A stretch of 64,000 nt of DNA from Thermus oshimai DSM 12092. Its GTDB lineage: Bacteria > Deinococcota > Deinococci > Deinococcales > Thermaceae. This document shows, in pieces, positions 58,310 through 59,889 of this stretch. A program made the position numbers and the translations under genes. The stretch lies in NCBI RefSeq assembly GCF_000373145.1, contig NZ_KB890614.1:220043-284042 (forward strand). Direction: 5' to 3'. How positions within the stretch are numbered: position 1 is the stretch's first letter; every line of letters begins with the position of its first letter. Below the pieces are notes generated by a model, which ran no database searches, had not been told where the DNA came from, and saw only the letters and a program-made list of their open reading frames with translations.

Positions 58310-59551
58310 ATGAGGTACGAGACCCTGGCGGTGCTGGCGGGGCTCCCTGAGGATCCCCACGGGGCGGTGGGGCTTCCCATCTACGCCGTGGCCGCTTACG
58401 GGTTCCCCACCCTGGAGGAGGGGGCGGAGCGCTTCGCCACGGGGGAAGGCTACGTCTACGCCCGGCAGAAGGACCCCACAGCAAAGGCCTTGGAGGTGCG
58501 GCTTAAGGCCCTGGAGGGGGCCTTGGAGGCGGTGGCCGTGGCCTCGGGCCAGGCGGCCACCTTTTCCGCCCTCCTCGCCCTCCTCCGCCCGGGGGACGAG
58601 GTGGTGGCCGCCAAGGGGCTTTTCGGCCAGACCATCGGGCTTTTGGACCAGGTCCTAAGTCCCCTCATGGGGGTCAGGGTGCGCTACGTGGACCCCGAGC
58701 CTGAGGCCGTGCGGGAGGCCCTTTCGGAGAGGACGCGGGTCCTTTTCGTGGAGACCGTGGCCAACCCGGCCCTCCTGGTCCCCGACCTCGAGGCCCTGGC
58801 GGAGCTGGCGGAGGAAAGGGGTGTGGCCCTGGTGGTGGACAACACCTTCGGGGCCGCGGGGGCGCTATCCCAGCCCCTCAAGTGGGGGGCCCACGCGGTG
58901 GTCCAGAGCCTCACCAAGTGGGCCTCGGGGCACGGCTCCGTGCTGGGCGGGGCGGTCTTGGCCCGGGAAACCGGCCTCTGGGCCCGCTTCCCCCAGTTCC
59001 TGGAGCCCGACCTAAAGGGAAGGGTCCCCTGGGAGGCCCTAGGCCCCCGGTGTTTCCCCGAAAGGGTGCGCCAGCTCGGGCTTTCCCTGGGGGGGATGAG
59101 CCTAAGCCCCTTCAACGCCTACCTCCTCTTCCAGGGCCTGGAGACCGTGGCCCTAAGGGTGGGGCGGATGAGCCAAAGCGCCCTGCGCCTGGCGGAGGCC
59201 CTTAGGGCCCACCCCAAGGTGAAGGCCCTCCGCTACCCCGGCCTCCCCGAGGACCCCGCCCACGCCCGGGCCCGGAAGTACCTCACCGCCTTCGGCCCCG
59301 TCCTCACCCTGGACCTGGGGAGCCTGGAAGGGGCGAGCCGGTTCCTGAAGGCCATCCGCCTCCTCAAGGCCCCCAACCTGGGGGACGCCCGCACCCTCCT
59401 CGTCCACCCCTGGACCACCACCCATAGCCGCCTCAAGGAGGAGGCCCGCCTCGAGGCCGGCGTGACCCCGGGGCTCGTCCGGGTCTCCGTGGGTCTGGAG
59501 GACCCGGAAGACCTCCTCGCGCTCTTCCAGGAGGCCCTGGAAAGCGTCTAG
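58310..59551 (+). CDS. O-acetylhomoserine sulfhydrylase-type PLP enzyme (Cys/Met metabolism family)
   Basis: 413 residues. PLP fold-type I, gamma-family: [20 protein letters not shown] near residue 49-68, [20 protein letters not shown] near 75-94, [20 protein letters not shown] near 145-164, [20 protein letters not shown] near 175-194 and the PLP lysine in [20 protein letters not shown] near 197-216. The NTFGAAG and [10 protein letters not shown] forms favour O-acetylhomoserine sulfhydrylase over cystathionine gamma-synthase. It joins O-acetylhomoserine and sulfide to make homocysteine for methionine. The minus-strand hepT ends 4 bases inside it. Confidence 0.88.
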
Positions 59552-59889
59552 CGGTTTAGAAGCTCCTCGGCCTTCGCCACCAGCTCGGGAAGGTGGCGGT
59601 GCACCACCCCAAAGACCACCGCGGGGTCTACGCGGGCGTAGGCATGGATAAGGCGATTCCGCATGGCCATGACCTGGGGGGCTTCGGGGAAGAGGGGCTG
59701 GATTTCGGGAAAGTGCTTGATGGCTTGGGACAGGGCTTCCCCCACGATCTCTAGCTTGCGCTCCACCGCCGCTCGGAGGAGGGGATTTTCCACAAAGTCA
59801 TGAAAGGCGATGCCCTGGAGAAACACCATGGCCTCCCTCCCCGCCTCTCAAATATCCCACATGTACCCTTTGAGGTCCCTAAGCGGCAT
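59548..59889 (-). pseudogene. hepT: hepT (HEPN toxin, DUF86) with an in-frame TGA at codon 14
   Basis: Reading from the ATG at 59889, which overlaps the mntA stop by 11 bases, gives MPLRDLKGYMWDI, a TGA at 59850-59848, then EAGREAMVFLQGIAFHDFV and a full HEPN protein. The pre-stop part matches the usual HepT start, and the RX4HXY catalytic motif reads RNRLIHAY near the middle. So the normal gene is 113 codons with a nonsense codon. An ATG at 59829, 18 bases after the TGA and preceded by GGGAGG, could restart translation to give a 93-residue protein lacking the first helix. Whether it is dead, re-initiated, or a sequencing error cannot be decided here. Confidence 0.75.

Follow-up and report, generated by a model that had tools for sequence, protein, structure and literature searches.

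An in-frame TGA in hepT beside an intact mntA in Thermus oshimai: probable recent inactivation of a mobile HEPN/MNT toxin

Introduction

The HepT/MntA pair of Shewanella oneidensis (SO_3166/SO_3165; PDB 6m6u, 7bxo) is a two-gene module of the type VII toxin-antitoxin class (PMC7641770). In Thermus, MNT-HEPN modules are already known to move between strains, one such mobile module being present in the lysine operon of T. thermophilus HB8 and missing from HB27 (PMC2701414). Here, we analyzed a window of 64,000 nucleotides from Thermus oshimai DSM 12092 (NZ_KB890614.1, positions 220,043 to 284,042), which holds a mntA-hepT module. Like the S. oneidensis pair, it consists of two genes and carries the RX4HXY and GSX10DXD motifs, and the S. 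oneidensis fold matches that of an intact close relative, the HepT of T. caliditerrae. Unlike that pair, it has a hepT stopped after 13 codons, the gene order is mntA followed by hepT with an 11-base overlap, and both proteins score below the NCBIfam equivalog cut-offs. The HB8 module is of the same kind and likewise occurs patchily at a locus that is conserved in other respects, but the window module lies between an oah2-like and an aminopeptidase gene rather than in the lysine operon. A HEPN/MNT pair is defined by neutralization of HepT toxicity via AMPylation by MntA, and the present pair is assigned from sequence.

Results

Layout of the module

The features of the locus are as follows.

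59548..59889, minus strand: hepT, HEPN (DUF86) RNase toxin gene with an in-frame TGA (translation and Pfam)
59848..59850, minus strand: the in-frame TGA, hepT codon 14; CTG (Leu) in both close relatives
59548..59829, minus strand: open part past the TGA, 93 aa from ATG 59829, RNRLIHAY present (translation, alignment, models)
59832..59842, minus strand: Shine-Dalgarno-like GGGGAGGGAGG, possible reinitiation signal for ATG 59829 (energy; G-rich codons in relatives too)
59879..60202, minus strand: mntA, intact MNT-domain adenylyltransferase antitoxin, 107 aa, likely TTG start at 60202 (Pfam, alignment)

In agreement with the first-pass annotation, which had described a HepT (HEPN/DUF86) frame carrying a TGA at 59850-59848 after 13 codons beside an intact MntA, translation of 59889-59548 (minus strand) gives MPLRDLKGYMWDI, then TGA, then EAGREAMVFL...RNRLIHAY...LLNR and a TAG, such that EAGREAM and 92 further residues follow the stop. 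The catalytic RNRLIHAY, also said there to be intact, is seen in the translation as the RX4HXY motif. The post-stop part matches PF01934 (HepT-like) with E=4.2e-17 and 62.4 bits against a cut-off of 23.5, and a search of the genome with the Pfam HepT-like profile yields a match spanning the TGA (profile positions 2-119, with one TGA inside). Since the pre-stop part aligns with relatives (MP-RELRAYLWDILQAGRE against MPLRDLKGYMWDI*EAGRE, the asterisk marking the stop) and the profile reads across the TGA, the stop lies inside hepT rather than upstream of it. No second stop or frameshift follows it in hepT. The TGA falls in helix 1, leaving the complete HEPN four-helix bundle outside any one open frame, and the interrupted hepT scores 34.4 bits with the NCBIfam HepT_toxin equivalog, below its cut-off of 60. 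At their convergent end, the stop codons of hepT (minus) and the oah2-like gene (plus) share four bases, 59548-59551.

The MntA identity proposed by the same annotation is borne out by a match to PF01909 (NTP_transf_2; E=2.8e-14), and its motif GSHARGEAQEASDLD fits GSX10DXD, the MNT domain being intact. The likely TTG start at 60202 was placed by alignment with the two closest modules (L002/L003) and by a Shine-Dalgarno energy of -12.7 kcal/mol. With the NCBIfam MntA_antitoxin equivalog, MntA scores 41.1 bits, below the cut-off of 60.

The native start of hepT

Relatives were sought in 27 Thermus genomes. The closest HepT proteins, from G025 (L002) and from T. caliditerrae (G009, L003/L042), are 69% and 66% identical to the window protein, respectively, and their MntA proteins are 57-62% identical to that of the window. 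Both modules have the same gene order and overlap as the window module, sit elsewhere in the genome and carry an uninterrupted hepT. As had been surmised for the pre-stop part, which was thought to be the normal DUF86 start, both relatives begin, with MPREL, at an ATG overlapping the mntA stop by 11 bases, which in the window corresponds to 59889-59879, where the hepT ATG overlaps the mntA TAG. Both read DILQAGREVL where the interrupted hepT reads DI*EAGREAM; they have CTG (Leu) at the TGA and again CTG rather than a start codon opposite ATG 59829. Close homologues starting at that position, which the first-pass annotation had named as a result that would refute it, were looked for and not found: none of about 40 homologues read in total, from Thermus and other phyla, gave evidence of a native start there, although truncated or disrupted sequences among the matches are uninformative on their own start. 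All homologues with an intact 5' end, again from Thermus and other phyla, carry the helix-1 region. Because these intact homologues span helix 1 and none evidences a start at 59829, the pre-stop part is, on the alignments, the native HepT N-terminus. Among viral contigs, no relative turned up, and plasmid records held only relatives below 60% identity.

What a product starting at 59829 would lack

In the T. caliditerrae HepT model (pLDDT 90.5), helix 1 comprises residues 5-23. A profile search against PDB sequences gave no match at E 0.001; a fold search did, the best Foldseek matches of this model being 7ae8, 6m6u and 7bxo (E from 6.5e-3, probability 1.00), the HEPN toxins of known HEPN/MNT complexes. 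By alignment, the first residue of a product from 59829 corresponds to T. caliditerrae residue 20, so that 15 of the 19 helix 1 residues of the HEPN bundle would be lost; the earlier remark that such a product lacks the usual first helix thus holds in both alignment and models. The model of the 93-residue product has no helix before residue 9 and a remainder at pLDDT 91, a predicted confidence that is no proof of a stable or active product.

Initiation signals and selection

The native hepT ATG is preceded by a weak Shine-Dalgarno signal (-3.3 kcal/mol, against -10.8 and -15.6 in the two relatives), while ATG 59829 has one of -15.6 kcal/mol, among the strongest 2% of the 927 ATGs in the window; this ATG with its strong signal follows the TGA after 18 bases. 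The GGGAGG before 59829 had been offered as a clue to a restart. The signal is indeed strong, but both relatives have GGGAGG as ordinary codons (Arg-Glu of AGRE; -12.9) without a start codon after it, which argues that it is partly a coding by-product. Most of the site is predicted to be base-paired in the RNA at 37 C, with less pairing at 70 C. Upstream of the native ATG, at 59890-59900, the Shine-Dalgarno sequence is lost (AGAGGTG or GGAGGTG in the relatives), the substitutions being synonymous for two codons of mntA (CAA GAA in place of CAG/CAA GAG) and conservative for the one that follows.

Compared with the relatives, hepT after the stop has dN 0.25, dS 0.9-1.1 and dN/dS about 0.22-0.28, and mntA has dN 0.34-0.37, dS 1.3-1.5 and dN/dS 0.22-0.30; between the two intact relatives themselves the figures are 0.056/0.265 = 0.21, and these ratios are rough, as a dS near 1 approaches saturation. 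The post-stop part thus appears as constrained as mntA. This constraint, together with the lack of any further lesion, suggests either that the stop is recent or that a product is still under selection; given that the ratio resembles those of mntA and of the intact relatives, the lesion must be young if hepT is dead.

Genomic context and other broken hepT genes

The module lies between convergent genes, an oah2/metZ-like gene (58310-59551, plus strand) and an aminopeptidase gene, as an insertion of about 880 bases (59541-60421); the names given here to neighboring genes are putative and come from reading the sequence. Most other Thermus genomes have no module at that spot and carry about 60-210 bases instead. 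Two genomes (G013 and G016) hold a MerR-like regulator and a mercuric-reductase-like gene there, for which reason the spot seems to be a recurrent insertion point. When the window genes were compared with the corresponding region of a relative (G010), apparent stops and one apparent frameshift proved to be antisense frames or to reflect a query extended upstream, and were set aside.

Frameshift or deletion has also broken hepT at three or more other Thermus loci, in two cases next to a mntA that appears intact. In G005 (L024) a single base is deleted and in G004:C17 (L037) the frame is shifted, the neighboring mntA frame being free of stops in each. In G023, a deletion joins the remains of mntA and hepT. 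Draft-assembly errors may lie behind some of these cases. An apparent N-terminal frameshift in another G005 locus (L005) was left uncounted, since no change of frame interrupts the HepT domain there. Elsewhere in the genome of the window (G000:C19, L110:1340-1564), an intact mntA-hepT pair is preceded, at a distance of some 1.4 kb, by a solitary truncated mntA.

Discussion

We consider a recent nonsense inactivation of the toxin of a mobile type VII (HEPN/MNT) module, with the antitoxin kept, to be the best explanation, at a probability of roughly two in three. According to this model, a mobile mntA-hepT module would have lodged between two convergent housekeeping genes, and a recent mutation would have turned hepT codon 14 into TGA. 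Translation from the native, mntA-overlapping ATG would then stop 13 residues in, and no HEPN RNase with its normal four helices would be produced, with MntA left intact. For modules of this sort, shedding the toxin before the antitoxin is a safe and inexpensive route of decay. The ATG and CTG codons shared by the relatives, helix 1 in the intact homologues, the other broken Thermus hepT genes and the absence of the module from the same spot in most other Thermus genomes all argue for inactivation, and we infer that active toxin is produced in very small amounts if at all. Against it stand the lack of decay after the stop, the strong downstream Shine-Dalgarno and ATG and the weak native signal, all of which are also expected of a shifted start; moreover, the reading rests on one strain.

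The first-pass annotation had left toxin loss, restart and read-through all possible, and each retains some weight here, with the evidence ranking toxin loss first. Ribosomes, either after ending at the TGA or newly recruited, might start at ATG 59829; the resulting HEPN protein of 93 residues, lacking helix 1, could still have a role as a weak toxin or as a partner of MntA that is not toxic. The energy of the signal at 59829 and its weakness at the native ATG, purifying selection after the stop equal to that on mntA and the confidently modeled remainder of the fold all favor such a restart. We nevertheless regard it as unlikely, as no relative starts at this position, where CTG stands despite the GGGAGG, as most of a core helix of the bundle is lost, as predicted pairing covers most of the site at 37 C, if less of it at 70 C, and as a recent stop accounts for the constraint equally well. 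The fuller proposal that the start has moved, the native ribosome site being lost, the TGA ending a remnant peptide and selection keeping the reinitiation product as a weakened toxin or MntA partner, appears more doubtful still.

An error in sequencing or assembly as the source of the TGA, or a mutation confined to this one isolate, would fit with a single base deciding the matter, with a draft genome in 24 contigs and with the absence of other decay in hepT. We find this improbable, given that comparison with the G010 region found no real break in any conserved gene and that no one-base change turns TGA into the CTG of the relatives; a one-base error would presuppose a codon for Leu (TTA), Trp, Arg, Gly, Ser or Cys, and other Thermus HepT proteins do have Trp (TGG) and Arg at the codon-14 position. 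Read-through of the TGA, by selenocysteine, a suppressor tRNA or programmed leakiness, would give low-level full-length toxin from a frame that is exact across the TGA and encodes protein conserved on both sides. It is the explanation to which we give the least credence, and selenocysteine in particular is disfavored: no SelB was found above the curated cut-off, the relatives carry Leu and not Cys at the TGA, and ARAGORN identifies the above-cut-off hits of the tRNA-Sec model as tRNA-Leu and tRNA-Ser genes, a typing that covered eight matches only, such that an unusual suppressor tRNA may escape it.

If hepT was inactivated as proposed, the locus would be a clean and young case of toxin-first decay in an abundant toxin-antitoxin family of thermophiles, in a genus with other broken hepT genes. 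Were the cell instead to make a stable 93-residue product, it would offer a test of whether the first helix is dispensable for the function of a HEPN RNase.
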